A stretch of DNA of 42,375 bases from an uncultured Gammaproteobacteria bacterium (GTDB lineage Bacteria; Pseudomonadota; Gammaproteobacteria; Pseudomonadales; Litorivicinaceae): assembly GCA_913042205.1 (NCBI GenBank), contig CAJWIY010000011.1:1-42375 (forward strand), in the 5' to 3' direction. Of the stretch, positions 12,368 to 39,012 are shown piece after piece; positions within the stretch are counted from its first letter, which is position 1; every line of letters starts with the position of its first letter. The notes beneath the pieces were generated by a model. The model worked only from the letters and a program-made list of their open reading frames with translations. It was not told the origin of the DNA and ran no database searches. Both the position numbers and the translations under genes were made by a program.

Positions 12368-12724
12368 TTAAAGTCTGCCGTTGAGTATCTCGTCGCAGCG
12401 AGGCCAGTTCCACTCGCCCTCGGTCCTGGCCATGCGTATTGACTCGATAAGTCCATCGGAGACGTCAATCTCGAGGACGCAGTAAAGGCTCAGACCATGG
12501 CCGTAGCCGTCACCATAGATCTTGGTTGAGTCCCCGGTCCCGATCCAGTTATATGTCACCAAATTTGGTTCCTGTTTCTCGACATCCTTGGGCTGACCAA
12601 ACCGATCGAAAAATATGTCCGCGTTCTGGCCGGCCCAAGACGCTGACGTCTCGCTAATAAGTTCACTGGTAGTCTTAAAACAGCCGGTTAACAGGCAAGC
12701 TAGAAGGATAAAAAAATACCGCAT
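12368..12724 (-). CDS. Small hypothetical lipoprotein
   Basis: The product is 118 residues. The N-terminal signal peptide ends in a clear lipobox (LLTGC at about residues 11-15), so it should be a membrane-anchored lipoprotein. The mature part contains [22 protein letters not shown] and a pair of later cysteines. The FGxP-plus-YxW pattern resembles small outer-membrane lipoproteins of the BamE/SmpA type, but I cannot assign it to a family with confidence. It lies alone between tRNA-Pro and tRNA-Ala. Confidence 0.65.
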
Positions 12725-12957
12725 GGCATGGGTCTCTCTGGTTAAAATTTAAACGCGGCAAGTCATTTAAGACCCGTTCAGATCTAGCGAAATACCTTTC
12801 TGGTGTCCTCTAAGCGCGGCATGTTCCAAATTTGTTTGTCAACCTTGTTCTAGCGGTTTAAACTCTCGCCGCGTGTAAATACGCATATCAATGCTACCAT
12901 AATCAAATTAAGGTTCTGGAAGATGTGGACTCCACAGGCTGGGGTTCGAAACAAATA

Positions 12958-13033
<76 letters not shown>

Positions 13034-13132
13034 TCTTAAATAACTGATTTAAATGATATAAATTTAGTTACGTCCTTCGAATTGAGATAACCTTTAAGTC
13101 AAAGGACATCTGAAAGACACTAAATTTGTCAG

Positions 13133-13453
13133 TCAAACAGCTTTTCCAATCATTTCCAAACGGCCAATAACCAGGTCATAACTCAAACCTGCATCCCTGC
13201 AGAAGGCTCTTAATGTTTTTGCGCCCTCAGACGTATTACAGGGTGCACATATCAGGACTAAGTTGTCGTCTTCACTTAGACCACCTTTGCTGAGTTGATG
13301 GATGTGATCGAGATGTGATTGGTCAAAGGAGAGCTTTGTGGCGCAATATGGGCAGCGATTGAAGGGATGCATAAGCGTACTGAGGCAGTGGTAAGCGTCA
13401 CAACCGCTCACTAGGGAAATGATGCAAGAGTCAAGGATCCCTGCACCAAACAT
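13133..13453 (-). CDS. Small HNH endonuclease
   Basis: The 106-residue product carries an HNH nuclease core. A CPYC zinc knuckle is followed by LDHIHQLSKGG, an NLVLICAPCN segment with the second cysteine pair, and a short basic end. These small stand-alone HNH proteins are often found in mobile or defence-related islands. The first 27 residues are atypical, and translation could instead begin at the internal ATG at 13372. It lies within the stretch bounded by tRNA-Ala and its decayed copy, which suits an acquired origin. No partner methylase is visible. Confidence 0.75.
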   Translation of the reverse strand: MFGAGILDSCIISLVSGCDAYHCLSTLMHPFNRCPYCATKLSFDQSHLDHIHQLSKGGLSEDDNLVLICAPCNTSEGAKTLRAFCRDAGLSYDLVIGRLEMIGKAV

Positions 13454-13464
13454 CAGTTGTTAGC

Positions 13465-13860
13465 TTAATCAGCGAACAAGAGAGTCCCCGTTTCAATCGG
13501 ACTATTGGACATATTGAATTTTCTCACCACATCATTCTCATCAAACAAAATGACAAGTTCATTCCGTGTGCCCTCAGATTTGATTCCTGCTAGACCAAAA
13601 GTAAGAAGCACTGAACCAACTGTTTCCTTGGTAAATGCAGTTGTATCGTCGTATTGATACTTCCAAATCAACGAACCACTGTCGGTGTACGAAGTTTCAA
13701 ATGGCGAACCGAACATTCCTTTGATCTGTAATTTGGTCGTTTGTCCCGCAACGATCTTTGCTTGAACCTTTTCTTCTGTCTGTCCTTTCATACTCTCGTT
13801 CCCCGTGTTTGCGCACGCAACAAGAATCAGAAAAGTGAATAGTATTGATATATATCTCAC
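13465..13860 (-). CDS. SmpA/BamE-like small lipoprotein
   Basis: The product is about 131 residues. The GTG at 13860 has GGAGG five bases upstream and gives a normal signal peptide ending in a lipobox (LILVAC); a longer frame from 13935 lacks this logic. The mature protein contains a pattern of the SmpA/OmlA fold: the segment IVAGQTTKLQIKGMFGSPF, then a WKYQYDD strand and a final LVILFDENDVV strand. Family members bind peptidoglycan or outer-membrane assembly partners; the role here is unknown. It sits next to the HNH gene in the tRNA-bounded segment. Confidence 0.6.
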   Translation of the reverse strand: MRYISILFTFLILVACANTGNESMKGQTEEKVQAKIVAGQTTKLQIKGMFGSPFETSYTDSGSLIWKYQYDDTTAFTKETVGSVLLTFGLAGIKSEGTRNELVILFDENDVVRKFNMSNSPIETGTLLFAD

Positions 13861-14162
13861 GTCTGCCTCCTTTTTAGGTTTGAAGAGTTTAAAAACTAAA
13901 TTGCGTACGTCGCAGAGAATTAATTCATTCTTCATTTTATCGATTCAATATATACACACCAAAAGCGCTCTTTAGCAAATCTAGGCAGGTTCCCGCGGGT
14001 ACTTTGTTGGAATCCTAAAACTCGTTTTTAGACTATGAATGAGAAAGTTGTACAAAAGGCAGAAGAGTTTGCTAGAAAGCAGACGTTTAACCCACCGTCA
14101 GTACTTCACTTGGTTATCTAAAAAAAATATTATCCTCTAAAAATCATGTAAGAGATTTCGTT
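13861..14162. other. Gene-poor stretch with a 28-codon ORF
   Basis: No full gene is visible. A short plus-strand ORF at 14035-14121 encodes a charged helix-like peptide beginning MNEKVVQKAEEFARKQ, then stops. It could be the start of a truncated gene, but there is no ribosome site of note and no family I can name. The stretch is AT-rich and lies within the tRNA-bounded segment. Confidence 0.3.
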
Positions 14163-14528
14163 ATGAAATTCTTGGGTTTAGCTATTTGTTTGGGAATTAT
14201 TACTGGAGCCGTTGTAACGGTCGGTATTCATTTATTTTTTGACATCAATAGTCTCGTGTTTGTTCTTGGCGGAGCAACTGGCTTTTTAGTCATGAAAAAT
14301 GACCCAGAGAAGCACCTTGCCAACTTCGGGGAAGGAGCTGTTTATTTTGGATGGCTTGGAACTCTAATTGGATTAATTTCTATCGCAGGTGACCGTTTTT
14401 CTGCTTGGGGTGATGTGGATAAGATGGGACCAGCATTAGCTGTGGCTATGCTCACCATCCTATACGGTTACTCAATCAAGCTAATCACCATTGCGTTAGC
14501 CAAAGATTTAAAGCCCGTCAAGGAGTGA
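14163..14528 (+). CDS. Short MotA/TolQ/ExbB-like membrane protein
   Basis: The 121-residue product has four hydrophobic segments. An N-terminal helix is followed by a second helix in SLVFVLGGATGFLVM, then GWLGTLIGLISI and GPALAVAMLTILYGYSIKLI. The last two, with the GxxGTxxGL and PALAVAxLTxLYG patterns, match the proton-channel helices of MotA-like proteins. It is about half the usual length and lacks the cytoplasmic domain and a MotB/ExbD partner, so it may be a compact homologue or a remnant. It lies in the tRNA-bounded segment. Confidence 0.6.
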   Translation: MKFLGLAICLGIITGAVVTVGIHLFFDINSLVFVLGGATGFLVMKNDPEKHLANFGEGAVYFGWLGTLIGLISIAGDRFSAWGDVDKMGPALAVAMLTILYGYSIKLITIALAKDLKPVKE

Positions 14529-14531
14529 ATA

Positions 14532-14585
14532 ATGAACAAGTACACAAAATCAGTTTTAACCGTGATTGAATCAGCCGAAAGCTAA
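14532..14585 (+). pseudogene. Possible truncated gene start (17 codons)
   Basis: AAGGAG at the end of the MotA-like gene is well placed for this ATG, but the frame closes after 17 codons. It reads like the preserved start of a lost second gene of that unit, possibly a MotB/ExbD partner. That is inference with no sequence proof. Confidence 0.2.
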
Positions 14586-14622
14586 CCAGACTGCAAACAC
14601 GATTCTTAGTGAGTGACTAATT

Positions 14623-14841
14623 TTATTGAGCGTTTTCATAATTGAACGATGTTGTAGGCATGGGAAAATGGACGAAACCAGATTTTGACTTTAGATTAGG
14701 AGCACGGGCTACATATGATCTTGTTTGTTCTAACTGAGAAAAGATAGTTAGCGGTAGCAAATTTCCAGTTACCACTGCGTGAATATCGTGCCTCTCCCAA
14801 GCCACTACAGTTTTAACAAATTGTTTGTATGGTTTTCGTTG
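14623..14841 (-). pseudogene. Open frame of uncertain status
   Basis: A minus-strand frame of about 70 codons, with a GTG at 14805, encodes a protein-like stretch including KPYKQFVKTVVAWERHD and SYVARAPNLKSKSG. There is no good start or ribosome site and I recognise no family. It may be a remnant in this decayed segment or a chance open frame. Confidence 0.2.
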
Positions 14842-15096
14842 CTAGATCAATGATAAAGAGTAGACAGTATCTCTGCAGCCATGTTCAGCGTCCCATGCCT
14901 TCATCTCGTCGGCAGTCATAAAAGCTTCCATCGCTTCAAAATCTAGAACGTTCATGAGCATGATAGAGTTATGCTCGTCTACTTTGGCGATTTGGTAGTC
15001 ACCAACAAACTGTGACCAAGTTGGCTCATCCTCCATCACTTTTGCCTTAAAAACTTCAAAAGTACATTTGAAGGTTGATCTTATACATGTATTCAT
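14842..15096 (-). CDS. Small DUF3764-like protein (putative ferredoxin-like fold)
   Basis: The 84-residue product starts at an ATG with GAGGGA six bases upstream. Its beta-alpha-beta pattern (CTFEVFKAKV..., then NSIMLMNVLDFEAMEAFMTADEMKAW) resembles small dimeric alpha-beta barrel proteins and two neighbours further right (17412 and 17836). The family name comes from memory and is not certain. It is the last gene before the decayed tRNA-Ala copy. No function can be assigned. Confidence 0.55.
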   Translation of the reverse strand: MNTCIRSTFKCTFEVFKAKVMEDEPTWSQFVGDYQIAKVDEHNSIMLMNVLDFEAMEAFMTADEMKAWDAEHGCRDTVYSLSLI

Positions 15097-15710
15097 TTAG
15101 GTCCCTCAACGGATATGATCGCGCTTGAATTATCGAATGATCTAATCTGATTTGTCGAGTTCTCGCAGGGAGATCTTAATTTAGATGATACGAGATCTGT
15201 TTAGTCGTAGTGGCGTAAGGAATTTTAAGGCAGGTCTAATACCTGGATACAAACAATCATGGCATTGTCTAGGTCGGTGGTCCGACCCCGCCTAGTTCCA
15301 CCATTTCAAGTTATTGGATTTATTCATAAAACTCGAAATATATTTTGGTGTATAAACGTGTAGCTTAGTCCCGCGCCTCACATGAGTAATACGGATTCGA
15401 TCGCACACTCGCACTCCCTCTACCCCTAGCTGACATCTCTTAATGACGCCAAATGGAATTCAGAGCGCTCGATTAGCATTCTCGGACGCAATCACGACTC
15501 TTCGTCATCTTTTGGATCGGATATCAGGCCAGTCAGGTAAACCCGCGGACCCGCACAGTGTATGCATCATGGTGGTTGGGTTTGGGCACTGTTACCCCAT
15601 ATATCTGTGGGGGTCACGAGGCTTCTAGAGCTACGAACAGTTTAGTTCGAAATAGCTGTTGAAACTACACCGAAGTTCGAGTTGATTGTTTAAGTTACAG
15701 GGGAGTTACG
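15097..15710. other. Long non-coding stretch containing a tRNA remnant
   Basis: Apart from the tRNA-Ala-like segment at 15259-15303, I see no gene. A 61-codon frame at 15443-15628 has no ribosome site and a composition unlike a protein. This stretch marks the right boundary of the tRNA-bounded segment and holds the upstream region of the copper genes. Confidence 0.5.
15259..15303 (+). repeat. Decayed copy of the tRNA-Ala 3' half (candidate attachment-site remnant)
   Basis: Positions 15261-15303 match the 3' part of the tRNA-Ala gene (12991-13033) at 37 of 43 bases, from the anticodon through the encoded CCA, in the same orientation. The 5' half is absent. This is the pattern left by elements that integrate into the 3' end of a tRNA gene. 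No integrase gene is visible between the two copies. Confidence 0.75.
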
Positions 15711-16343
15711 ATGATACTCTACCGCCTAGCGATACTTATCTTGTTGTTCGTTCCAAAAGTAGCAGCCGCACACTCGCCTGTGGCTTACGTGATACCCCAA
15801 GACGAGGCGATCATTAAGGAATCACCAGAAACAATGGAGATCGCATTTACCGGTCCGTCGAGGCTCATCAAAGTCACATTGCATAGGCTGCTTCCGACCG
15901 AGGGTGCATCACTCTTCAGTAGGTTGTTCGGTGAGGCTCGGCAAGAGGAGATCGGGTTGTCAGACGATCAGTTCATGAAAGAAAACAAACGGCACCTGAT
16001 AGGGTTGCCGCCACTGACGGATGGTAAGTATAAGGCTGCATGGCGTGCCATAAGTGAGGACGGTCATACGATCAAAGGGAATTTTTCGTTCGAAATATCT
16101 CCAAATGGGACCAGCCTTGTAGCGATAGAGAAACAGAGCTTTAGTGGACAGGGTGTTGTCATACGAGTAAGGGACGCGAGCTTAACAATAAAGCACGGAC
16201 CTATTGGAGATCTGATTCCAGCGATGACAATGGAGTATGAGGTACCAGATAAGGCGATACTTAGAGAGCTGAAAAAAGGGGATCACGTGTCTTTCGTAAT
16301 AAACAAAGATCTGGATATCGTGCAACTGGTCAATGGAGAATAA
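15711..16343 (+). CDS. Periplasmic copper protein: CopC domain fused to a CusF-like domain
   Basis: The 210-residue product has a signal peptide ending in AAA, leaving a mature N terminus HSPVAY, with histidine as the first residue as in CopC. A CopC beta-sandwich follows to about residue 135, including the EDGHTIKG loop with a second histidine. The C-terminal part (about 140-210) resembles the CusF fold, with KHGPI and the copper-binding MTM motif (PAMTMEY). The position of CusF's copper-capping Trp is not Trp here. The start has GGGGAG upstream. With the downstream copD-like gene it should handle periplasmic copper. Confidence 0.82.
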   Translation: MILYRLAILILLFVPKVAAAHSPVAYVIPQDEAIIKESPETMEIAFTGPSRLIKVTLHRLLPTEGASLFSRLFGEARQEEIGLSDDQFMKENKRHLIGLPPLTDGKYKAAWRAISEDGHTIKGNFSFEISPNGTSLVAIEKQSFSGQGVVIRVRDASLTIKHGPIGDLIPAMTMEYEVPDKAILRELKKGDHVSFVINKDLDIVQLVNGE

Positions 16344-16475
16344 GGGTATTGAGTCAGTTCAGTCAAAAGCAACGAAGAGCTAGTCGGGTACTGATATTTT
16401 TAAATCAAATTACTCTCCTTCTTATCAAGTGACCCGCACGGTTCAGGGCGTGAATGTCTGGCGGGTAGAGTGATC

Positions 16476-17348
16476 ATGGATATCTGGGTATTACTGATCC
16501 CTACGATGCGAGTAGCTCTTTATGCTGCCGTAATCGGGGTCATAGGCACGTTTCTATTTACGGGTCATTTCTGGAGATACCAGTCGGACCGCAGCAGGGC
16601 CTATTGCACTGAACTACTACAAAAACTGTCTATGGTCGGAGTCTTAACCTCGGCCGCACTTTTTTTTGCTGTGAGCGGAAACATGGGCGGGACCTTCATG
16701 AGTGCATTTTCGCCTGAGCTACTTGAAATAGCGCTGAGTTCCAAAGCAGGGATCGCAAGCATTCTAGGCACAGGGGGATTTTTGGTCGTTATAGGCAAGA
16801 ATAGACTTGACCGAATCCTTCCCCCACTTGTAACTACCTTCGCGGTATCAGGGCTCCTTTTGTGGACCTTTCTCGTGTCCGGCCATGCGATAAAACTTGG
16901 TGCTTTTGCTCAGATTCTGTTGTTAATCCATTTACTCGGTATTGCGTTCTGGCTCGGTTCGCTTTTGCCCCTGAAACACATGTGTGAGTGCGAGGAGGGT
17001 GACGAGTTGTACGAGGTGGCGCACAATTTTGGGAAACTAGCTGTCTTTTATCTGTTAGGTCTATTGGTGGCCGGAGTTACGTTTGCATACTTGCTGATCG
17101 GTGACCTAGCTTTGCTGGTAGAGACCTCCTACGGTAACGTTTTTTTGGTGAAGCTATTGGTGGTTTCGGTTTTATTTTCTCTGGGTGCTTATAACAAATT
17201 TGTGTGTGTTCCCAAAATAAAAACCGATCCCATAAATGGCGCGCTGTACTTGAAGAAGTCGATTCGCATTGAGCTGGTGGCAGTCACCTTGATTTTTACA
17301 ATTACAAGCGTGCTGACAACTTCTGTCCCCCTTCCTATGGGGGGCTAA
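16476..17348 (+). CDS. CopD-family copper resistance/uptake membrane protein
   Basis: The roughly 290-residue product is an integral inner-membrane protein with about eight hydrophobic helices. The HLLGIAFWLGSLLPL segment and the SGHAIKLGAFAQILLLIHLLG stretch match CopD, which is thought to move copper across the inner membrane together with periplasmic CopC. It follows the CopC-CusF gene on the same strand after about 130 bp. The ATG at 16476 is preferred; a GTG lies two codons earlier. Histidines in the membrane segments are potential copper ligands. Confidence 0.85.
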   Translation: MDIWVLLIPTMRVALYAAVIGVIGTFLFTGHFWRYQSDRSRAYCTELLQKLSMVGVLTSAALFFAVSGNMGGTFMSAFSPELLEIALSSKAGIASILGTGGFLVVIGKNRLDRILPPLVTTFAVSGLLLWTFLVSGHAIKLGAFAQILLLIHLLGIAFWLGSLLPLKHMCECEEGDELYEVAHNFGKLAVFYLLGLLVAGVTFAYLLIGDLALLVETSYGNVFLVKLLVVSVLFSLGAYNKFVCVPKIKTDPINGALYLKKSIRIELVAVTLIFTITSVLTTSVPLPMGG

Positions 17349-17411
17349 TCGCTACCCGAATATGGAAAGCTCTAGTCCTATTTCAAGATGTTGGTCGTCG
17401 TTTTACGAACA

Positions 17412-17696
17412 TCAACCCATGAAGTAATTACCAATCTGCGCGATCGGTGTCGTGGAAGATACGTCAGCCCCAGCAGCCTCTCTGATCGCAACAATATCCG
17501 CCCTCTCGCCAAATGTTTTCATGAAAGACGGGTCCTGTGCCTCGACCAAGACATAAACCGCAGTCTCGTCGGCATTACATCCGGCCCAAATAATTTTCGA
17601 GCCAACCTCATTCATTTGGGGCTCAAGACCTTTGGCCATTTCAGACCAAGTATCCCAACCTTTCGAAATTTTAATTGTCACCAGCATAGTTACCAT
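17412..17696 (-). CDS. Small DUF3764-like protein (putative ferredoxin-like fold)
   Basis: The ATG at 17696 has GGGAG seven bases upstream and gives a 94-residue product; the longer frame from 17735 lacks support. The layout is beta-strand (MLVTIKIS), a helix with WDTWSEMAKGL, then strand KIIWAGCNADETAVYVLVEA and helix FMKTFGERADIVAIREAAGA. This is the split beta-alpha-beta pattern of small dimeric alpha-beta barrel proteins, like the neighbour at 17836. Family name from memory. Function unknown. Confidence 0.6.
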   Translation of the reverse strand: MVTMLVTIKISKGWDTWSEMAKGLEPQMNEVGSKIIWAGCNADETAVYVLVEAQDPSFMKTFGERADIVAIREAAGADVSSTTPIAQIGNYFMG

Positions 17697-17835
17697 TCCA
17701 AATCTCCCAATTTTTTGTAAGGTTTTGATTCTCACAGATACTTTTAATCACGTCACTGCGATGACAAAAAACCTTGTCAAAGATACAGTCGCGAAGCAGA
17801 CAAAGCATCAAGACCAAACATGGGCCAACATGTTT

Positions 17836-18102
17836 TTAATTGACGTAGATTTCCGTCACGGTTGACTCAAGGATGTGGCCAGAAGAAGCCATGGGCTCCC
17901 CATTAGCCTCGATAAACTTTTGCATATGCTCTTCGCTCAAGCAGTTCACAACTACAACTACTCGTTTATCGTTGCCCGGATCGTGGCCGTGGTACAACTC
18001 ATATAGACCCGCGGCTCGGGCTATGGGTTGGTGAATGTAAAACGCTTGTTCCCACTGAGCGAACGTGTTGCTTATGTCAAATTTAAGAATCGCTGTGATC
18101 AA
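17836..18102 (-). CDS. Small DUF3764-like protein (putative ferredoxin-like fold)
   Basis: The 88-residue product begins at a TTG with AAGGAG six bases upstream. The pattern is strand AILKFDI, helix FAQWEQAFYIHQPIARAAG, strand YELYHGHDPGNDKRVVVVVN, helix EEHMQKFIEAN, final strand. This is like its neighbours at 14842 and 17412 and like proteins labelled DUF3764. It is upstream of the 18127 ORF's end by 24 bp with the same orientation. Function unknown. Confidence 0.6.
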   Translation of the reverse strand: MITAILKFDISNTFAQWEQAFYIHQPIARAAGLYELYHGHDPGNDKRVVVVVNCLSEEHMQKFIEANGEPMASSGHILESTVTEIYVN

Positions 18103-18126
18103 GTGAAACTCCTTAAATGAATCAGA

Positions 18127-18333
18127 TCAGACTTTGTATACCATAGTTCCATAGACAGGATCACTGAAACCGGATCTTGGCGACAACTCCTCCAATAGGT
18201 GGCGCGTACTGTCAAGTAGAGAACTCATCCCCGGCATAGCCCGCTGCATTTCCTCCCGCTCTGCTAGAGGCCCAATCCAACATAGGTTTGATCCCCAGTC
18301 TTGGCTCGAACGTGTAAAAGCATTCCGTCCCAT
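18127..18333 (-). CDS. Small hypothetical protein, possibly a shortened alpha-beta barrel protein
   Basis: The 68-residue product reads like the second half of a dimeric alpha-beta barrel monooxygenase-like domain: strand SNLCWIGPLAE, helix REEMQRAMPGMSSLLDSTRHLLEEL and a last strand TMVYKV. The first strand and helix seem missing, so it may be 5'-truncated. An AAGG lies a few bases before the ATG. It sits in the run of small minus-strand genes upstream of the hydratase operon. Confidence 0.4.
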   Translation of the reverse strand: MGRNAFTRSSQDWGSNLCWIGPLAEREEMQRAMPGMSSLLDSTRHLLEELSPRSGFSDPVYGTMVYKV

Positions 18334-18368
18334 TTTTCAGCCTTTTTGAAAATGCTCTCAAATTCAGA

Positions 18369-18563
18369 TTAACGGCCCTCTTTCACTCTGGAGCAGACAA
18401 CCTTGGCGTGTCTGGCCATGTTCGCTAAGTCTTCTGTCTGATGATCATTTATTTGTGGTCCATATCCATCAAGATACTGATGCCACACACACGAGTTGGC
18501 TCGCGAAAGAACCCTCCAGCACACCTTTGCACTAGAGTGGTCTGATTGCAAACGTCGCTGCAT
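18369..18563 (-). CDS. Hypothetical short ORF of doubtful status
   Basis: The frame encodes 64 residues with a protein-like C-terminal half (QINDHQTEDLANMARHAKVV) but lacks a clear ribosome site. Open frame continues upstream into the promoter region of the hydratase genes. I recognise no family. It may be a remnant. Confidence 0.22.
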   Translation of the reverse strand: MQRRLQSDHSSAKVCWRVLSRANSCVWHQYLDGYGPQINDHQTEDLANMARHAKVVCSRVKEGR

Positions 18564-18633
18564 GACAGTTTTTCTCAGTCGCTTTGCAGGGTGTAGAATG
18601 ATGCCCGAGTGCTAAACCTCGAGGGGAAAAAAG

Positions 18634-18957
18634 ATGCGCGGCCCACATGATGTAGGCGGTCTCGATTCTGGACCGATCGATCTGGCGGAATATTCTCTGA
18701 CATTCTGGGAATTACAAATTGACGCGATACGAGCCGTGATTGGCTCTAAGGGGATTGTTTCGACACACGAAAATAGACGGACGATCGAGCAGTTTGGGCA
18801 CGAAATCTATGACACGTTGTCCTACTACGAACGATGGACCGCCGCGTTACAGCGTCAAATGGTAGACAAAGGCATCTTGACTCAGGATGAGATTGATAAA
18901 AAAGTCGCGCAGCTGCGGATCCGGTTCCAGGAAACTGGGGATCTGGAAGGTCCGTGA
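18634..18957 (+). CDS. Nitrile hydratase beta N-terminal-type subunit (thiocyanate hydrolase beta-like)
   Basis: The 107-residue product corresponds to the N-terminal half of the nitrile hydratase beta subunit as a separate polypeptide. PHDVGG at residues 4-9 is the beta-subunit start signature. The helical part includes TFWELQIDAIRAVI, the YYERWTAALQRQMVDKGILT segment and a final KKVAQLRIRF helix. In thiocyanate hydrolase the beta and alpha subunits are the two halves of an NHase beta chain, as here. GAGGGG seven bases upstream supports the ATG. The stop overlaps the next start (GTGA). Nitrile hydratase accessory proteins share this fold, but they normally lack PHDVGG. Confidence 0.82.
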   Translation: MRGPHDVGGLDSGPIDLAEYSLTFWELQIDAIRAVIGSKGIVSTHENRRTIEQFGHEIYDTLSYYERWTAALQRQMVDKGILTQDEIDKKVAQLRIRFQETGDLEGP

Positions 18958-19241
18958 CGGTGTCGGTCAAGTTCAATCCGGGAGACCAAGTTGTAGTGCG
19001 TGGAGACTATCCGATTGGACATTTTCGGACGCCTGTGTATGTCAGGGGACACCTTGGTGTGGTGGTGCGTTACCTGGGGCACTTCGAGAACCCCGAACCA
19101 CTCGCATATTGCCTACAAACCGACCTGTTAGCCTTGTTCAAGGTTCGGTTTAGGCAGGTAGATCTTTGGCACGAGTATAAGGGCTCTACCGCAGACACGA
19201 TTGACCTTGATTTGTACGAGAACTGGTTAGAGAGAGGTTGA
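18954..19241 (+). CDS. Nitrile hydratase beta C-terminal-type subunit (thiocyanate hydrolase alpha-like)
   Basis: The 95-residue product is the SH3-like C-terminal half of the NHase beta chain: FNPGDQVVVRGDYPIGH, then FRTPVYVRGHLGVVVR (Arg25 and Arg31), and the closing VRFRQVDLWHEYKG...LDLYENWLE block. The Arg of the RxPxYxRG motif corresponds to the beta arginine that contacts the oxidised cysteine ligands of the metal site in NHases. The GTG start overlaps the upstream stop by GTGA and its own stop overlaps the region of the alpha-type gene, so the three genes are one tightly coupled unit. Confidence 0.85.
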   Translation: MTVSVKFNPGDQVVVRGDYPIGHFRTPVYVRGHLGVVVRYLGHFENPEPLAYCLQTDLLALFKVRFRQVDLWHEYKGSTADTIDLDLYENWLERG

Positions 19242-19246
19242 GTAAG

Positions 19247-19876
19247 ATGGACAGTTTTGGCCATGATCATAGTCACGATCACCCCCACCAATCAGACGAT
19301 AAGATTCATGCCTACTACCAAATATTGGGCCAGGCACTGAAAGAATTGCTCATCGAGAAGGGCATAGTAAGCGCGTCTGAAATACAGTATGCGATGGAAA
19401 GACGCGAAGCCACCACGCCAGCGAATGGTGCGAAAGTGGTCGCCAGAGCATGGTTGGATTCGGAATATCGTAAACGCCTGTTTATGGATGCAAACTCAGC
19501 CGCTGCGGAGTTTGGGATAGAACTACCCACGACACACTTAGTTGCGCTGGAGAATACGCCGAAGATTCACAATGTGGTGGTTTGCACGCTTTGCTCGTGT
19601 TACCCGCGTGATCTGTTGGGACTGCCGCCGGCCTGGTATAAAAGCAAAGCCTATCGCTCGAGGGTGGTCTGCGAGCCGCGTGAAGTTTTAAAAGAGTTCG
19701 GCACTTTGCTACCCGACGATGTCGAAGTACGAGTTCATGACTCTACCGCTGATTTGCGCTACCTAGTGGTTCCCATGCGACCCGACGACACTGACGATCT
19801 GGGCGAAGACGCGCTTCGGTCACTGATTACGCGCGACACTATGATAGGTGTTGCCTTAGCTGGTCGTACTATCTAG
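19247..19876 (+). CDS. Nitrile hydratase alpha-type catalytic subunit, cobalt type (thiocyanate hydrolase gamma-like)
   Basis: This subunit holds the metal centre. The 209-residue product has VCTLCSC with Cys113, Cys116 and Cys118; Thr at 114 marks the cobalt type (iron enzymes have Ser). YPRDLLGLPPAWYKSKAYRSRVV and the EFG...LP segment complete the family core. The N terminus is histidine-rich (five His within residues 6-14), reminiscent of thiocyanate hydrolase gamma. I chose ATG 19247, nine bases after AGAGAGG; a TTG at 19238 overlaps the previous stop. The reaction is hydration of either a nitrile to an amide or thiocyanate to COS and ammonia; sequence alone does not decide. Confidence 0.88.
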   Translation: MDSFGHDHSHDHPHQSDDKIHAYYQILGQALKELLIEKGIVSASEIQYAMERREATTPANGAKVVARAWLDSEYRKRLFMDANSAAAEFGIELPTTHLVALENTPKIHNVVVCTLCSCYPRDLLGLPPAWYKSKAYRSRVVCEPREVLKEFGTLLPDDVEVRVHDSTADLRYLVVPMRPDDTDDLGEDALRSLITRDTMIGVALAGRTI

Positions 19877-20363
19877 CGTAACCGTCGAGGTTAGTCCTCC
19901 TTTTGAGGGGATTTCCGACTTGAGTATGATGATCCATTTGGTGGCGCACACCGCTAATATTTGAAAAAGAAAAGTTTGTAACCTCTCTTTTAGCAAGTGG
20001 TGAGGTTAGCAATGCGAAACATCAGCTGACTGTTTATAGTATCAGGCTCGAGCATTTTATTTATGTCGGTTGTGGCTTATCTTGCTAGGGGATTCTGGAG
20101 ACTAGTAAATGGGGCCCGTTGTGAGACTGTTAGAGCGCACCAGTAGATTACATTAATGACGAGATCCTCTTTGAGTTAAAGAGTCACTCAGGTCATTATG
20201 CTATTCAAGAAATTCTAGAATCTAATCCAGCAGATTGTAGGAGAGCCCCGGAGGTGGAGAGGGCAGGAGGTCGTGGCACCAGAGATGGCTATAAGGACCG
20301 ACGTTAATATGTCACTAATCGGCAACTATTAACTAATCGAAAAAGGCTAGAGGAGTATTAGAT
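19877..20363. other. Stretch without a clear gene between the hydratase operon and the rhodanese gene
   Basis: Just after the alpha-type gene lies a short CCTCCTTTTGAGGGG hairpin. A second inverted pair, TAACCTC and GAGGTTA, follows about 80 bases later. An open frame without start at 20134-20307 looks weakly protein-like but begins right after a stop. The end holds the ribosome site of the rhodanese gene. No accessory or metallochaperone gene for the hydratase is present here. Confidence 0.5.
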
Positions 20364-20741
20364 ATGAAAAAGACCGCCCAAGATTTTCTGAGGGAAGCAA
20401 ACGCGGTAGTGCCGTCGATCGGTGTTACGGACGCTGTTTCTCTCATGAATTCTGGTAAAGCAGTAGTCATTGATGTTCGTGATGGCAAAGAAATCGATCA
20501 GTCTGGAACTGTGAAAGACGCCCTCCGAATTCCTCGTGGTATGATCGAATTTGTAGCGGATCCAGCGACCGATTTTTATAATGATCAGATTTCTACAGAT
20601 AAAGAAATTTTAGTAATTTGTGGCGCCGGCGGGATGGCGGCTTTAACCGGTAAAACTCTGGTCGACATGGGATACGACAAGGTTCGTAATCTGGGTGGCT
20701 TTTCCGCATGGAAAGATGCCGGGGGTCCGACGGAAAGTTGA
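20364..20741 (+). CDS. Single-domain rhodanese-like protein
   Basis: The 125-residue product is one rhodanese domain. It has the IDVRDGKEIDQSG strand-loop, an IPRGMIEF segment and the active-site loop with cysteine (ICGAGGMAA), ending in NLGGFSAWKDAGGP. Rhodaneses carry sulfane sulfur as a cysteine persulfide. There is no signal peptide, so it should be cytoplasmic. AGAGGAG nine bases upstream supports the ATG. It is near the hydratase operon and a DsrE-like gene, which suits sulfur transfer, but a direct partner cannot be named. Confidence 0.92.
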   Translation: MKKTAQDFLREANAVVPSIGVTDAVSLMNSGKAVVIDVRDGKEIDQSGTVKDALRIPRGMIEFVADPATDFYNDQISTDKEILVICGAGGMAALTGKTLVDMGYDKVRNLGGFSAWKDAGGPTES

Positions 20742-20764
20742 ATACCTGAAGTGCGTGGAATAGA

Positions 20765-20787
20765 AAGACCACCTCTGTAGTGGTCTT
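20765..20787 (+). terminator. Hairpin after the rhodanese gene
   Basis: AAGACCAC at 20765-20772 pairs with GTGGTCTT at 20780-20787 across a seven-base loop. A loose T-rich run begins about ten bases later, so it is a weak intrinsic terminator. Confidence 0.45.
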
Positions 20788-20944
20788 CGTACACCTTTAT
20801 TTTTGCTGATCGCTCTTCGGCCGATGTAAGAAACATTGGTCTTCAAGTAAGTGTAAACTCCACCACCAAACCCTGATCTCTCCCATATCTCTCCATAATC
20901 AATTCGCATAATTACGCTCAATCCAATAGAAGTGAGATGTAGTG

Positions 20945-21028
20945 ATGTTCACGACCCGATTAGATCAAGTTTTGTTTGGAATCTGTCTGCTGATTAGTGG
21001 TATGGCGATTCAGCTTTTTTTACCCTGA
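20945..21028 (+). CDS. Possible 27-residue single-pass membrane peptide
   Basis: The ORF starts MFTTRLDQVLFG and is followed by one hydrophobic stretch (residues about 9-26) ending in Pro-stop. A charged N terminus followed by one helix is the usual layout of bacterial small membrane proteins. There is no strong ribosome site, only GTGAG-like sequence upstream, so it is a weak candidate. Confidence 0.25.
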   Translation: MFTTRLDQVLFGICLLISGMAIQLFLP

Positions 21029-21147
21029 TTTCAAGACGTCTCAAGCTTTGTTTCAAGGGCAAATACCCCCGATACACTCCTTTTTCTCGATTTCAGTCGG
21101 GATTTTTTTGAAATTGTAAAAACACAATCGAAATATATTTTGATTAT

Positions 21148-21510
21148 TTAATAGCACAACACACTGTCCGCACCAAAGGATCGGTTAATTAATGTATCAG
21201 GCATTGCGAATTGCGCATTGTAACCCTCTAAAAGATTTTCATCATAACCCCGTGCCCGCGAAGACATACCAGAAACGAACATTTTTACATTGCCTTCTCT
21301 GAGTTCGTCGAGATGAACCTTTACGTCTCCTGTTCCTTGTCCAACTATTTCATTCTCATTTTTGCAGTTGAGCAGGTGCACCCCATCTGCTGAAAAGAAA
21401 ATCTCCACGTCATGACCTTCCCGAAGGCCTGTAACAGCGACCAGTAAACCCATCGTGACGTTGTTCTTCATCTGAGGGTGACTGTAAATATGCACTAACA
21501 ATTTTGACAT
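21148..21510 (-). CDS. DsrE/DsrF-like family protein
   Basis: The 120-residue cytoplasmic product has the DsrE fold. It has strand LLVHIYS, helix MGLLVAVTGLREGHDV, strand EIFFSADGVHLL, a helix in HLDELREGNVKMFVSG and a C-terminal Arg/Cys region. Some DsrE family members carry or relay sulfane sulfur; others act elsewhere. The ATG is preceded by AAGGA. Cysteines at the family's sulfur-carrying position are not certain here, so a role in sulfur transfer is only suggested by the rhodanese and sox context. Confidence 0.75.
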   Translation of the reverse strand: MSKLLVHIYSHPQMKNNVTMGLLVAVTGLREGHDVEIFFSADGVHLLNCKNENEIVGQGTGDVKVHLDELREGNVKMFVSGMSSRARGYDENLLEGYNAQFAMPDTLINRSFGADSVLCY

Positions 21511-21993
21511 TCCATTATTCCTTGTTAAAAACTTTCAATCTTAAATTGTAAATCAATGATTACCTGCGCAAATAAGGACAGTAACTCTGTGACATTCGAG
21601 ATTTTTATTCATGATAAATTGAAATTTTTGACTGACGACACTGTTTACCAAACTCTGTGTTCTGACATCCGAATATCACTCAAAGTCTCTATAAGGTAAT
21701 TAAGAAACGGTGAATTGGTAAGTCTCTTTTTAAAAAAGTTAGCTTAAAATCTGAACACTGAGAATGAAATCGAGAATTTGGGCATCAATGATGTCATTTA
21801 CCAGCTAGAGCTTTTTCACCACCATCTTCCGAGATTACTCCGCACTAAATCCAAGCAGGTTGTACTGGATACACAAAGTGCGCTAGCGGTTTGCGTGTGG
21901 CCTGTATTTTTTATGATGAAAAAACACGACGATCGGATGAGGTCTGGCCCAAGTTGTTTTATGTTAGAGAAAAATTAAGGAAAAGATCTCAAA
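21511..21993. other. Non-coding stretch upstream of the adenylate cyclase
   Basis: A divergent promoter region between the DsrE-like gene and the cyclase gene, about 480 bases and AT-rich. A 66-codon frame at 21778-21978 lacks a ribosome site and has an unconvincing composition, so I do not call it. No structured element stands out. Confidence 0.5.
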
Positions 21994-23169
21994 ATGGAGA
22001 CGACAGCTCAATTATCTTCGCGTTTTAAGCAGGTTTTCTTTAATACTGGTGTTGGAATAATGATCGTAGATAAAAGTCGAATGTTATTGGAGGTTAACCC
22101 AAAATTCTGCGAATTCTTTGGATATACAAGAGATGAGTTGGTGGGTAAAAGTGCCGAGATGCTCCATCTGTCAACGGACACCTTCAAAGAGTTCGGCGAA
22201 AAGGCTTTCGATCAGGTTAGACAGAAGAAGACCGTTAATTTGGAGTGGCCCTTCAAGAAAAAGGATGATGACGAAATATGGTTTAGAGTTGCCGGTGATC
22301 CGGTCGCCGGGGCTGAAGAGGTTCTTTGGACTGTCGTTGACATCACTCAAAGAGTTCAGGCACAAGCGAAGGTAGAGGAATTAGCCGAAAAATTATCTAA
22401 ATACCTCTCTCCACAGGTATACGAGTCAATTTTTTCAGGAAAACAAAACGTAAAAGTAGAAGCGTACAGAAAAAAACTGACCGTTTTCTTTTCGGATATC
22501 AAAGGCTTCACTGAGTTAACCGATAGTTTAGAACCCGAAGTACTGAGTTCTCTGCTCAACAGTTACCTAAATGAGATGTCTGAAATAGCTCTGAAGTATG
22601 GGGGGACGATTGATAAGTTTGTGGGAGATGCCATTTTGATTTTTTTTGGGGATCCGGAGACACGGGGCACCCAAGAGGATGCAATATCCTGCGTTCTAAT
22701 GGCCATGGAGATGAGAGAAAGAATGAAATCTCTACGCCTCAAGTGGAACGACCAAGGAATATCTCAGCCGTTGATGATCAGAATTGGGATCAATAGTGGA
22801 TTCTGCAACGTGGGGAACTTTGGGTCGGAGGATCGGTTGGATTACACGATAATTGGAGGCGAAGTTAATTTGGCCAGCCGTTTGGAGTCTTCTGCGGAGG
22901 CTGGTCAAATTTTAATTTCGCATGAGACCTACTCATTGATTAAAAAGTCGATCGCATGCGAAAAAAAGGATGAAATTAGCGTCAAAGGAATAGCCCATAA
23001 AATCCAAACCTACGAGGTGATTCGTCCATTGGAAGCCGGCCAGCACCATCCGCAATATATCTTTGAAGATTTCGAGGGATTCAGCTTATCTATTGATTTA
23101 AACAGGAGTGAGAAAAAACGTACACTTGAGGCACTCAAGAAAGCTCTGGGTGAACTTGAGCGGTATTAA
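21994..23169 (+). CDS. PAS-domain class III adenylate cyclase
   Basis: The 391-residue soluble protein makes cyclic nucleotide in response to a signal sensed by its PAS domain. PAS spans about residues 8-125 (NTGVGIMIVDKSRMLLEVNP to WTVVDITQR), a short helical linker follows, and the cyclase homology domain spans about 150-345. Metal ligands are Asp168 (FSDIKGFT) and Asp212 (FVGDAILIFFG). The adenine-selecting Lys208 and Thr285 (DYTIIG, class IIIb type) favour ATP, and Asn292 and Arg296 support catalysis. No transmembrane segment is present. It is a single gene between the DsrE-like and a secreted hypothetical gene. Confidence 0.92.
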   Translation: METTAQLSSRFKQVFFNTGVGIMIVDKSRMLLEVNPKFCEFFGYTRDELVGKSAEMLHLSTDTFKEFGEKAFDQVRQKKTVNLEWPFKKKDDDEIWFRVAGDPVAGAEEVLWTVVDITQRVQAQAKVEELAEKLSKYLSPQVYESIFSGKQNVKVEAYRKKLTVFFSDIKGFTELTDSLEPEVLSSLLNSYLNEMSEIALKYGGTIDKFVGDAILIFFGDPETRGTQEDAISCVLMAMEMRERMKSLRLKWNDQGISQPLMIRIGINSGFCNVGNFGSEDRLDYTIIGGEVNLASRLESSAEAGQILISHETYSLIKKSIACEKKDEISVKGIAHKIQTYEVIRPLEAGQHHPQYIFEDFEGFSLSIDLNRSEKKRTLEALKKALGELERY

Positions 23170-23290
23170 GTTAATGGGAATAGGTGGGTGTCAGGAACCA
23201 GTGGGCGACACTCTTATGCCTTACGAATTACCTGAATATATACCCAGGATCGCGGCAGCAGTTTCAGGTCAAAATTGAAGGATATTTTCT

Positions 23291-23563
23291 ATGAGACAGC
23301 TTATTTTCATTCTCATCTTGATGGTGCCAATAGCCTCGAATGCCGAGCACCAAACAGATAATCATTTTTCAAAAGAAAACTGCGAGGAGATATTTAAAGG
23401 GGTGCAGTTTTTGCTTTCTGAAGCCGACAAACACTGGGAGGCGCTCAATGAAAATCCCGAGGGGTCGAAGAAGTTTATTGAGGATGCAACGAGAGTCCAA
23501 TGGCTGGCCGATGTGGCTGGCAATTACTCGACCGTTTATCAAACCTTTTGCAAGGAAAACTAG
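23291..23563 (+). CDS. Small secreted hypothetical protein
   Basis: The 90-residue product has a signal peptide (MRQLIFILILMVPIASNA) and a mature helical part with two cysteines, Cys35 and Cys87 by rough count, that could form a disulfide. AAGGA eight bases upstream supports the start. It follows the cyclase gene on the same strand after about 120 bp. I recognise no family. Confidence 0.55.
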   Translation: MRQLIFILILMVPIASNAEHQTDNHFSKENCEEIFKGVQFLLSEADKHWEALNENPEGSKKFIEDATRVQWLADVAGNYSTVYQTFCKEN

Positions 23564-23692
23564 CTTCAAACAACAGCCGTGCTCCCCAAAATTTGCTATT
23601 GTTTGGTTGAGCACAAAGAGTGAGGTCCTGCCCTCATTATCTGGTCCGGTCTCTCGCTACATTCTATTTTGATTAATTTGTTGGTTGGTCGC

Positions 23693-23998
23693 CTATGATC
23701 CAGCTCCCGCTTCCAATTGCTTTATCAAGGCTCGGGCTGCGTCGTCGTCGAGCATGGGCTTCACAATTGGGAAGTGACACATGGTTGCCCAGCCCAGCGT
23801 CCACGCGGTCATCGCCTCTTGGTCGTCGGTTTCTAGAATGGTGATGCCTGTCCCGTTGGGCACATCGTGATACCGCGCCAGTAGTTTCACATTCGGCGGC
23901 ACCTCGGCAGCGATCTGTTCGGCGGACATGTTCGCGAAGAACGATTGAGCCTGTTCTTTCTTATCTGGGAAGCACTCATAGGAAGCAAAAAATATCAT
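23693..23998 (-). CDS. Small DUF3303-like protein (putative ferredoxin-like fold)
   Basis: The 101-residue product resembles DUF3303-type proteins, from memory: FFASYECFPDKKEQA, helix, strand VKLLARYHDVPNGTGITILETDD, helix AMTAWTLGWA, then a C-terminal helix with P-x-L-DDD. This fits a small dimeric alpha-beta barrel. An AGGA seven bases upstream supports the ATG. It is a single gene, in the same orientation as the other small fold-like genes at 14842-18102. Function unknown. Confidence 0.6.
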   Translation of the reverse strand: MIFFASYECFPDKKEQAQSFFANMSAEQIAAEVPPNVKLLARYHDVPNGTGITILETDDQEAMTAWTLGWATMCHFPIVKPMLDDDAARALIKQLEAGAGS

Positions 23999-24306
23999 TC
24001 AAGTATCCTCATTTGATTTTCTTTCGGATGATTTATTCGGGCCTTGATAGTTATCGCCCGTTGAACTCCTCAATTTTGGAAATTGCTGTAAGCCGTAAGA
24101 ATCAAAAGTCTTATTATTAAACTGGTCTAATGATAAGACCGAATCCCGATGCATTATCTGGATCATGAATTCATCGACACGGGCAGCGCCTGATTAAAAA
24201 CAGTGAAGAAACCCGTGGCCCCGCGCCCAGCTTCTATTGAAAATCTCGCGGTCCTGGCAGGTGTCTTGCTGTGGCTTTATCCGACTCAGATCTAATCCCC
24301 ATTTTT
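23999..24306. other. Stretch without a clear gene
   Basis: An inverted pair GGTCT/AGACC at about 24125-24142 makes a small hairpin. A GTG-started 30-codon frame at 24203-24295 encodes a peptide with one hydrophobic stretch, but it has no ribosome site. Nothing else is seen. Confidence 0.4.
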
Positions 24307-25164
24307 TTAGAGACGACGCTTTATCTCGTGAATGTGTGAGGGCGAGATCTCGCAGCACCCTCCAACGATGGTTGCACCTACTGATATCCATTGGTCTACG
24401 TAATCCGCGTATTTTGTTGGCGATAGATCCTCACGAGCCTGTAGCTTAAACACGGACTCACCACGGGCAAGTGGCTCCACACTCACAAACCCATTGCCGT
24501 ATGCGCCAAACGGCATATCAAAGATCGACAACTCCGCTATGTGATCGCTTATGATTTCAGGCTCGCTGCAGTTTATGAGGATCCCGCTGAGGTCCTTGTG
24601 GTCGAAGCAACCCTTAACCTCTTTGAGTGTTTGTCCTGACTTAAGCTTGCCGTTTTTTTCTAGACGGTAGGCCAGGAAAACCGGTTTGCCGCTTTCCAGG
24701 CCGGCCGTGACCGCGGCCTCTGCTTCGAGCGGGTTGGTCATCGTCTCTATGATCCACAGATCGACCGCGGGATGAAGTTGAACTATCTGCGCATACTCTT
24801 CCGCCATGCTGCTTTTGGGGCGGGAGGGGGTTCCAAGATAGCTACCGTGCAAAGGTGGGAGGCAACCCGCGACTTTTATGGGAAGTTTGCTGTTCTGGAT
24901 GGCTTCCCGGACAGCTTGTTCGGCCATGGAGTGTATCAGCTCGAAGTCGTCTTCACGATTCGAATTTCGGAGCCTTGTAGGCGTGGCTGCATAGGTATTC
25001 AGGGTACATATTTCAGCGCCTGCTACAATAAACTCGAGGTGTACCTCTCTAACAATCTCTGGCTCGTTGAGCATCGCCTCCACAGACCAGAGGAGTGCCT
25101 CCGTGAGCTTTGATCGACGGTATATTTCCTGTCCTAGCCCTCCGTCGAGGAGCGTTATTTGCAT
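24307..25164 (-). CDS. Homocysteine S-methyltransferase family protein
   Basis: Members transfer a methyl group from S-methylmethionine, betaine or a related donor to homocysteine, giving methionine. The roughly 285-residue product has the TIM-barrel start LLDGGLGQEIYRR. The zinc cysteines are in place: Cys of GILINCSEPE and the Cys pair of GGCCEISP near the C terminus. The donor is not clear, as both MmuM- and BHMT-like enzymes share these motifs. The ATG at 25164 is preferred; a GTG lies three codons upstream. It is a single gene between decayed sequence and a gene-poor stretch. Confidence 0.88.
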   Translation of the reverse strand: MQITLLDGGLGQEIYRRSKLTEALLWSVEAMLNEPEIVREVHLEFIVAGAEICTLNTYAATPTRLRNSNREDDFELIHSMAEQAVREAIQNSKLPIKVAGCLPPLHGSYLGTPSRPKSSMAEEYAQIVQLHPAVDLWIIETMTNPLEAEAAVTAGLESGKPVFLAYRLEKNGKLKSGQTLKEVKGCFDHKDLSGILINCSEPEIISDHIAELSIFDMPFGAYGNGFVSVEPLARGESVFKLQAREDLSPTKYADYVDQWISVGATIVGGCCEISPSHIHEIKRRL

Positions 25165-25222
25165 CAGGGTCACCTGTCTTGCGGATTGTTTTCATGAGCT
25201 GACCTACTTTTATAACGCGTAA

Positions 25223-25505
25223 TATCATCCACATGGAACCACTAAGAGCGAATTTACCGCGATCGAAGTTTTTTTCGAAGGTTTTCAAAAATGGGATTAC
25301 TCTGACTTGGAGAGTGTGACACAGGGCGTTATGCAGTTTTGGAGCCCGGAGGGGTCGGATTGCTTTATATGATTTCTTTATTACCTTTGGACTAAAAAGG
25401 TATGTCTCCGATGCCTATAATTCCTTCGATCGGGAGGAGTGGCATATTGAGGTATGTGTTATTGCTCATGGAGATGCTACGTTTATTCGGGGTCCTTCCA
25501 TTTAA
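25223..25505 (+). pseudogene. Possible frameshifted remnant of a small-protein gene
   Basis: Two consecutive open frames give protein-like sequence. The first (to the TGA at 25370) contains IEVFFEGFQKWDYSDLESV; the second, one base shifted and ending at 25505, contains YVSDAYNSFDREEWHIEV and ends RGPSI. Joined, they look like one small domain, perhaps a SnoaL/NTF2-like protein. There is no start codon in the first frame. The family guess is weak. Confidence 0.25.
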
Positions 25506-25528
25506 AGCGACGCGTAAACCCTTTTGCA

Positions 25529-25556
25529 TTGACACCATGAATGGATCAAGTATGTT
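25529..25556 (+). promoter_or_regulatory. Sigma-70-type promoter of the mini-gene
   Basis: A perfect TTGACA at 25529-25534 is followed 16 bases later by TATGTT at 25551-25556. Transcription would start near 25563, about 30 bases before the strong ribosome site and ORF at 25595. Confidence 0.6.
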
Positions 25557-25594
25557 AGCGCCATGTTCAGCAGTAATTTAAAGGAGGTGATCCA

Positions 25595-25663
25595 ATGTCT
25601 AGTGAATTGAGTCTAATTTTGAGTGATGTTGGTTGCCGTAGTGAGGTTCGGGGTAACTCCTGA
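25595..25663 (+). CDS. 22-residue peptide ORF with an exceptionally strong ribosome-binding site
   Basis: The ORF begins MSSELSLILSDVG, has one Cys and ends in NS. The sequence just before it, AAAGGAGGTGATCCAA at 25580-25595, matches the full complement of the 16S rRNA 3' tail over about 16 bases, with GGAGG seven bases before the ATG. It sits between a consensus-like promoter (25529-25556) and an intrinsic terminator (25715-25739), so it has all parts of an expressed small gene. Its RNA can also fold (see the 25628-25677 entry), so the transcript could act as an RNA instead of or as well as encoding the peptide. No match to PqqA-type precursors. No function assigned. Confidence 0.5.
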   Translation: MSSELSLILSDVGCRSEVRGNS

Positions 25664-25677
25664 AGGCACGCGCCAAC
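25628..25677 (+). ncRNA. Nested RNA fold overlapping the mini-ORF
   Basis: GTTGG (25628-25632) pairs with CCAAC (25673-25677), TGCC (25634-25637) with GGCA (25665-25668), and GAGGTT (25643-25648) with AACTC (25655-25659) with a bulge. These nest to give a three-part stem. It overlaps the end of the ORF, so it may be a structured small RNA. I recognise no known RNA family. Confidence 0.35.
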
Positions 25678-25714
25678 CCACTGAAATGTGATCGCTCGAG
25701 ATTACCATTTCGCG

Positions 25715-25739
25715 AAGGGAGCTATTTAGCTCCCTTTTT
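25715..25739 (+). terminator. Intrinsic terminator of the mini-gene
   Basis: AAGGGAGCT (25715-25723) and AGCTCCCTT (25728-25736) form a nine-bp stem with loop ATTT, followed by a run of T to 25739. It would end transcription from the promoter at 25529. Confidence 0.85.
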
Positions 25740-25839
25740 AATGGGCGAATCTTTGTGCTCATGCTTGTTGTCGCAGGCGCCTAAAGGCTGAGTCTCTTCA
25801 ATTGAAAATGTCAGGATCGTGTTTAGCCCAAGAGATGAA

Positions 25840-36320: not shown

Positions 36321-36337
36321 AATATAGGGATACGTTG

Positions 36338-38621: not shown

Positions 38622-38656
38622 GCTCTGTTCTAACTCGCTATGGAGAGGAAACTATA

Positions 38657-38992: not shown

Positions 38993-39012
38993 ATTCACAT
39001 AGGAGAGATGCG

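Follow-up and report, generated by a model that had tools for sequence, protein, structure and literature searches.

Three overlapping open reading frames (ORFs) on the plus strand fill positions 18634-19876 of the window, by which we mean the whole 42,375-nucleotide stretch analyzed here, on contig C11 of a 2.02-Mb genome that is 98% complete. The first (18634..18957, +) encodes a polypeptide of 107 residues and 12.2 kDa that matches the N-terminal part of a nitrile hydratase (NHase) beta chain (PF21006, NHase_beta_N; E = 9.9e-19); we refer to this AnhD-like product as betaN. It is followed by the AnhE-like C-terminal part, betaC (18954..19241, +; 95 residues, 11.0 kDa, GTG start; PF02211, NHase_beta_C; E = 1.6e-19), and by a cobalt-type alpha subunit with a His/Asp-rich N terminus (19238..19876, +; 212 residues, 23.8 kDa; PF02979, NHase_alpha; E = 9.7e-79). 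Both junctions are 4-nucleotide overlaps, with GTGA between betaN and betaC, and alpha could start either at TTG 19238 (212 residues) or at ATG 19247 (209 residues). Its metal site, Cys116-Thr-Leu-Cys119-Ser-Cys121 (19583..19600, +), was read from the alpha sequence as the motif VCTLCSC. The three cysteines and the serine are invariant in an eight-sequence alignment and in a set of 53 loci.

A sequence-only reading of this locus had described the split beta chain, the GTGA overlap, and the VCTLCSC motif, all of which are borne out by the ORFs and their Pfam matches. It was also right about the three-part plan, the split NHase beta, and the comparison with toyocamycin NHase (TNHase), and in noting that the subunits are shorter than those of thiocyanate hydrolase (SCNase) from Thiobacillus thioparus (107, 95, and 212 residues versus PDB chains of 157, 126, and 243). 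In the PDB, betaN matches SCNase beta best (2dd4_B, 45.9 bits), with an NHase beta second (4zgd_B, 36.7 bits). For betaC, the best match is a P. putida-type NHase beta (3qyg_B, 48.1 bits), and SCNase alpha (2dd4_A) scores 39.2 bits.

Family placement and second-shell residues

Directly after the CSCYP motif of alpha lies Arg124 (19607..19609, +; Arg121 when counted from ATG 19247), and it is the residue at this position that defines what we call R-type and W-type loci. Against the NHase alpha equivalog model TIGR01323, the window alpha scores 250.0 bits, passing the cut-off of 249.85 by only 0.15 bit, and 3 of 10 other R-type alphas fail the same model. The SCNase model TIGR03887 is failed both by the window alpha (210.2 bits; cut-off, 291.45) and by all 10 further R-type split alphas tested. 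The NHase beta equivalog model TIGR03888 (cut-off, 152.2) gives 58.5 and 61.4 bits for the two beta parts, a shortfall that is expected because beta is split and each part covers about half of the model.

The association between a split beta chain and the residue after CSCYP was evident in a sample chosen independently of likeness to the window, for which we took all NHase_alpha matches with E <= 1e-30 from 398 Pseudomonadota genomes; 58 of these genomes contributed 61 matches. Nine of these loci, the window included, were split in the order betaN-betaC-alpha, and all nine carried Arg after CSCYP. The 48 fused loci had W (44), H (2), or F (2) at that position, and W was also found in one split alpha-betaN-betaC locus and three partial loci. 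Our residue counts cover a set of 155 loci (90 R-type split, 54 fused, 5 split alpha-betaN-betaC, and 6 SCNase). The R and W groups are defined by the CSCYP residue itself, and for that residue only the split and fused counts are meaningful: outside the SCNases, the position holds Arg or Lys in 90 of 95 split loci but in 0 of 54 fused ones, and 6 of 6 SCNases have Arg there. The five split loci lacking Arg or Lys are all ordered alpha-betaN-betaC.

Phylogenetic analysis gave a similar picture. In a quick tree of 132 alphas, rows with R or K after CSCYP, from split loci and SCNases, were set apart from the rest (SH-aLRT, 99). In a concatenated tree of 53 loci, whose bootstraps had not settled and which fixes neither the root nor the exact position of the SCNases, a 100/100 branch separated the 19 W-type rows from the rest, and the six SCNases formed a 100/100 clade on a long branch. 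The window trio fell outside the SCNase clade in both the alpha and the concatenated trees, and a Streptomyces locus of the same three-part plan was placed among the R-type rows, in trees built without ScNHase or ToyJKL sequences. An approximately unbiased (AU) test rejected a clade uniting the genus with the SCNases (p = 0.0185), and a grouping of the R-type split rows that excluded SCNase was not rejected (a cost of 1.45 log units; p = 0.468). The SCNases may therefore belong within the R-type split family or next to it, and the window trio is not an SCNase by descent. The earlier reading had proposed alpha phylogeny as one check between SCNases and ordinary NHases; it sets the trio outside the former and places it with the latter only in the wider sense of a three-subunit family apart from the fused enzymes. 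Judged by sequence, the trio is a member of a widespread split NHase family that is distinct from fused NHases. Duplicates of loci fetched twice and two partial alphas (L009 and L170) were dropped as rows, and an ordinary fused NHase with an activator (L140) is absent from the 53-locus tree and from the activator and residue counts but contributes to the order and activator tallies of the 61-match sample.

The second-shell residues distinguish the trio from SCNases. In an alignment with P. putida NHase beta (3qxe_B), betaN Arg48 (18775..18777, +) corresponds to Arg52 and is Arg in 155 of 155 loci. BetaN Glu52 (18787..18789, +), the counterpart of Glu56, and betaC His23 (19020..19022, +), the counterpart of His147, are both conserved in 149 of 149 NHase-type loci. 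SCNases instead have Asn (4) or Ala (2) at the first of these positions and Tyr (6 of 6) at the second. BetaN Arg48 and Glu52 and betaC His23, together with betaC Arg25, which aligns with Arg149, are kept in 90 of 90 R-type split loci, and SCNases lose two of the four. One study describes Glu56 and His147 as important second-shell residues of P. putida NHase (PMC8278588), and the PDB variant 3qyg has Gln at beta position 56. Furthermore, the window alpha is without the SCNase insertion of 10 to 12 residues: from a conserved alpha Trp to the first metal-site Cys, SCNases have 57 to 59 residues versus 47 to 49 in R-type split loci. Other positions are common to both groups. BetaN Arg67 occurs in 88 of 90 R-type split loci, 6 of 6 SCNases, and 4 of 59 of the others, and betaN Arg49 is common to the window and the SCNases and is absent or rare in fused NHases. 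Across the loci examined, fused NHases, three-subunit NHases, and SCNases can be told apart by the CSCYP residue, betaN Glu52, betaC His23, the alpha insertion, and the presence of a linked activator. In the accessible part of the open-licence literature, we found no published account of an association across bacteria between Arg after CSCYP, the activator-free state, and a split beta chain.

Activator search and maturation

We searched for activators with a profile (cut, 25 bits) whose 46 seed ORFs were candidates taken from fused, alpha-betaN-betaC, and SCNase loci, so that it matches these groups partly by construction. A linked activator-like ORF was present in 50 of 54 fused loci (the exceptions being L007, L119, L167, and L169), in 5 of 5 split alpha-betaN-betaC loci, and in 3 of 3 partial W loci; the 90 R-type split loci yielded one, and the 3 partial R loci none. 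The sole R-type split match, an ORF of L014, also scores 80 bits as betaN. Four of six SCNase loci had a linked match, and the remaining two scored 23 to 24 bits. Flanks of at least 800 bases were available on both sides of the trio in 82 of 90 R-type split loci, and downstream in 85, so that a missing activator is weaker evidence in the eight loci with short flanks. In the 61-match sample, an activator lay beside 0 of 9 R-type loci, including the window, versus 49 of 52 others.

We also searched whole genomes. In the window's own genome, the activator model TIGR03889 matched only betaN, at 18.7 bits against a cut-off of 46, and betaN was likewise the only activator-like match in G006, G011, G012, and G020. 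Among the 22 genus genomes, only G016 had a match above the cut-off, next to the fused NHase that it carries separately. At E <= 0.01, the model found nothing in six genomes showing R-type split matches only, and it did find a match in three genomes (G486, G378, and G307) that hold both R-type split and W-type loci. Because TIGR03889 misses SCNase activators, which it detected in 0 of 4 SCNase genomes, we also used the SCNase activator of L096 as a query. This query strongly matched all three of the other SCNase genomes (E <= 5.3e-35), and in the window's genome, G006, G011, G012, and G020 it recovered betaN alone (E = 0.0006 to 0.009; own genome, 0.0015). In five of the six R-type split genomes it returned nothing at E <= 0.1, and in the sixth (G622) its one match (E = 0.07) lay almost wholly inside betaN. 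The window's genome thus has no activator recognizable with these queries, leaving room for a more divergent one, and the activator-free state appears to hold widely among the split loci sampled. A search of the 22 genus genomes for the cobalt transporter CbtA was negative. The beta chain of NHases may have been split on more than one occasion. Five W-type loci (L102, L103, L105, L108, and L132) have beta in two ORFs, with frameshifts possible, in the order alpha-betaN-betaC; since they have a linked activator, a beta split is not by itself tied to activator loss.

Two characterized enzymes resemble the window trio, and we compared both by description. ScNHase from Streptomyces canus CGMCC 13662 has the gene order anhD-anhE-anhA, no activator gene, and subunits of 10.41, 11.35, and 21.33 kDa (PMC7329996). 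It is thus like the window in its betaN-betaC-alpha order, its three separate subunits of similar size, and its lack of an activator gene. TNHase (ToyJKL, Streptomyces rimosus) is described as a heterohexamer with two copies each of subunits of 21.2, 10, and 11.4 kDa (PMC8574189), and this plan of three subunits of about 21, 10, and 11 kDa is close to the 12.2, 11.0, and 23.8 kDa of the window, as are the ScNHase sizes. Its locus lies in an antibiotic gene cluster (PMC12648386), unlike the window, where none was seen among the scanned neighbors. The Streptomyces locus that we read directly, L093 from strain NBC_01176, is 56, 32, and 41% identical to the window in alpha, betaN, and betaC, respectively; it adjoins an aquaporin and a Ni/Co transporter gene, neither of which is among the scanned window neighbors. 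Classical cobalt NHases with an activator (P. putida; L008 in the same-genus genome G016) are like the window in family, metal motif, and all four beta residues, but unlike it they have a fused beta, a linked activator (in the 50 of 54 loci given above), and Trp, rarely His, Phe, or Thr, after CSCYP. A study with SCNase and NHase trees calls NHases two-subunit enzymes (PMC10098168).

Taken together, these comparisons suggest that the trio encodes a cobalt NHase of the three-subunit, activator-independent ScNHase/TNHase type, a reading to which we assign a probability of about 0.8. The trio would then add to an already known, thinly studied kind of NHase. Several findings count against this reading, among them the 0.15-bit margin with TIGR01323, the failure of 3 of 10 other R-type alphas to reach that model's cut-off, the arginines shared with SCNases, the negative CbtA search, and the fact that betaN scores SCNase beta above any NHase beta in the PDB. 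Under the preferred reading, betaN and betaC would jointly take the place of a conventional beta chain above the metal site of alpha, probably in a (betaN betaC alpha)2 assembly. The metal would be cobalt, the metal-site cysteines of alpha would be oxidized, and metal-activated water would be added to a nitrile, the presumed substrate, to yield the amide. During maturation, betaN, as an activator relative, may hold apo-alpha for cobalt entry and pass it on by subunit swapping.

Because no activator gene was recognized in the genome, free betaN may also do the activator's job, which we consider an even bet by analogy with AnhD of ScNHase. AnhD is described as both a metal chaperone and a subunit-swapping chaperone (PMC7329996). 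A further report singles out AnhD-Glu56 and AnhE-His21 as key residues (PMC13243292), and these may be the counterparts of betaN Glu52 and betaC His23. A chaperone role of betaN need not be general, since TNHase alpha alone is active and ScNHase and TNHase mature differently; according to the same source, two NHases with activator genes were also made active without their activators (PMC7329996). The activator-free state has been described for one Streptomyces enzyme, and its apparently wide occurrence in the sampled loci makes the model of betaN as a chaperone testable in many enzymes.

Candidate substrates and the sox genes

One feature of alpha leans toward the SCNases. The Arg after CSCYP is common to SCNases but not to fused NHases, and together with betaN Arg49 and Arg67 it could point to another substrate class. 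We take the CSCYP residue to lie at the substrate pocket, from the position of Trp117 in Fe-NHase alpha. It is unlikely, but conceivable, that R-type hydratases as a whole, found here in a marine sulfur oxidizer, are a functionally distinct and mostly unstudied group whose pocket is cationic and whose substrates are small cyano compounds, polar or charged. They would mature without a dedicated chaperone because a beta fragment doubles as one, and SCNase would be a specialized branch of the group. For the window trio itself, we consider it quite unlikely that the enzyme is a hydratase of some other small polar or charged cyano compound, with alpha Arg124, betaN Arg49, and betaN Arg67 adding positive charge to its pocket, and with SCNase as a later specialization. 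The split and fused counts for the residue after CSCYP fit such an enzyme, as do the AU tests, which leave SCNase inside or beside the family. Set against this, the placement of the Arg in the pocket is drawn from the Fe-NHase Trp117 position, and the known three-subunit enzymes take larger nitriles. Specifically, ScNHase hydrates acetamiprid and thiacloprid and not indole-3-acetonitrile (PMC7329996), and TNHase hydrates toyocamycin (PMC12648386).

The sequence-only reading had likened the trio to an SCNase and had suggested that the host could gain energy from thiocyanate. Such an enzyme would convert SCN- to NH3 and COS, with the sulfur passing into the sox pathway. We regard this as very unlikely, despite some resemblances. 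SCNases (T. thioparus 2DD4; L096-L099, L091, and L092) share with the window the three-part plan, the metal motif, betaN Arg48, and betaC Arg25, and the Arg after CSCYP, betaN Arg49, and betaN Arg67 are common to all six; beta is split in L096-L099, and SCNase beta is the best PDB match of betaN. Identities with L096 and L091 are 44 to 47% for alpha, 30 to 33% for betaN, and 26 to 31% for betaC. Yet neither the window alpha nor any of the 10 other R-type split alphas tested reaches the TIGR03887 cut-off, uniting the genus with the SCNases is rejected by the AU test, and the trio keeps betaN Glu52 and betaC His23, both lost in SCNases. SCNases also differ in their longer chains, their alpha insertion, and their linked activator, which has no SCNase-type equivalent in the genome by the L096 query; in L091 and L092 the small subunits are fused as well. 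Combined with the distribution of sox genes described below, these results oppose both the enzyme assignment and the claim of energy from thiocyanate, and they remove a likely misannotation, that is, thiocyanate use by this marine group. In L091 and L092, which lie on Azospirillum and Roseomonas plasmids, the fused small subunits form a 283-residue SH3-like protein beside scnC; TauE/SafE genes lie near both loci, and CbtAB occurs in L092.

The host does carry sox genes, and the soxB cut-off is passed in all five other trio genomes, as an SCNase would suggest. The stretch 36335-42375 encodes SoxY, SoxA, a molybdopterin-binding protein, a cytochrome c protein, and, incompletely, SoxB, which bears out in part the "complete sox cluster" of the earlier reading. 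The soxB gene (41110-42375) runs off the contig end, and contig C8 of this assembly carries another piece of it. Matches to soxB at E <= 0.001 occurred in 18 of 22 genus genomes and also in 10 of 14 controls, for which reason only matches above the model cut-off were counted. These were found in 16 of 22 genus genomes, with sub-cut-off pieces in the window's genome and G010. They occurred in 5 of 6 trio genomes and in 11 of 16 genomes without an alpha match, and the latter count argues that sox is independent of the trio. One study places HIMB30 and several OM252 metagenome-assembled genomes under Litoricola in GTDB and reports sox genes in both OM252 subclades, one species cluster excepted (PMC8269220). 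The host of the trio is itself probably a gammaproteobacterium of the Litoricolaceae/OM252 group.

Recurrence and genomic surroundings

The betaN-betaC-alpha trio is also present in five other genomes of the genus, although alpha in G016 ends at the contig end. Genomes of the genus are often incomplete (lowest, 56%), and alpha was found in 6 of 22, the window's own included, with the other five alphas 78 to 86% identical. A seventh genome, G007, has betaN and a betaC fragment at a contig end. Beyond the genus, we scanned GTDB species genomes with two alpha motifs and used the best 80 of 589 relatives, which include four genus genomes again and one circular contig seen twice. Among these best 80, beta was split in 77 of 77 readable loci, and the order was betaN-betaC-alpha in 71 and betaC-alpha-betaN in 6, with the other 3 loci cut. 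Furthermore, the trio is under purifying selection: dN/dS relative to G011 was 0.068 for betaN, 0.153 for betaC, and 0.085 for alpha, and that of betaC relative to G006 was 0.204, other pairs being more distant, with dS not computable. Although betaN and betaC together make up one NHase beta chain, there is virtually no chance that the locus is an ordinary two-subunit NHase whose beta gene was frameshifted or broken in assembly, given the identical split in the five genus genomes and the 77 relatives, the low dN/dS of all three ORFs, and the separate start codons and short overlaps across genus loci.

The surroundings of the trio vary. When 15 other window proteins (12368-27477) were compared with the stretches around the trio in other genus genomes, the sole match was a short ORF beside tRNA-Pro. 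By eye, G020 and G006 share some trio neighbors. The distance between the trio and a tRNA-Pro(CGG) gene is 0.6 to 0.7 kb in G016 and G007 and about 6 kb in the window, and a tRNA-Ser(GCT) gene lies 1.3 to 5 kb away in G020 and G006 (tRNA positions: window, 12269-12345; L175, 1814-1890; L181, 1043-1119; L172, 14929-15021; L174, 3019-3111). It is possible that these tRNA sites are insertion hot spots, and the trio is likely an accessory, movable trait. Downstream in the window are genes for a rhodanese-domain protein (20364-20741) and a DsrE-family protein (21148-21510), neither of which was found beside the trio in the stretches from other genus genomes.

Neighboring genes were also considered as a clue to substrate. 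Clusters around 83 loci looked, by eye, like Rhodobacteraceae chromosomal synteny and were set aside; the gene caller used for this survey was crude and picks antisense ORFs in GC-rich DNA. Aldoxime dehydratase (PF13816) had no match in the 22 genomes and likewise none in the control genomes. A partial second alpha in G011 (L170; contig C55, 13649-14723), with the motif CSCYPRSILGQ, lies at a contig end and adjoins an isochorismatase-like hydrolase, a context that may hint at a nitrile-to-amide-to-acid route. By eye, the rest of L170 resembles a hydroxyproline-type catabolic cluster (racemase-like, DapA-like, ABC transporter, and dehydrogenase genes), and the alpha of L168 has the same motif. 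Finally, an aquaporin gene and genes for cobalt or nickel/cobalt transporters follow the split NHase genes of L093 (Streptomyces) and L094 (Rhizobium), an arrangement that would suit the passage of a small neutral substrate or product across the membrane.
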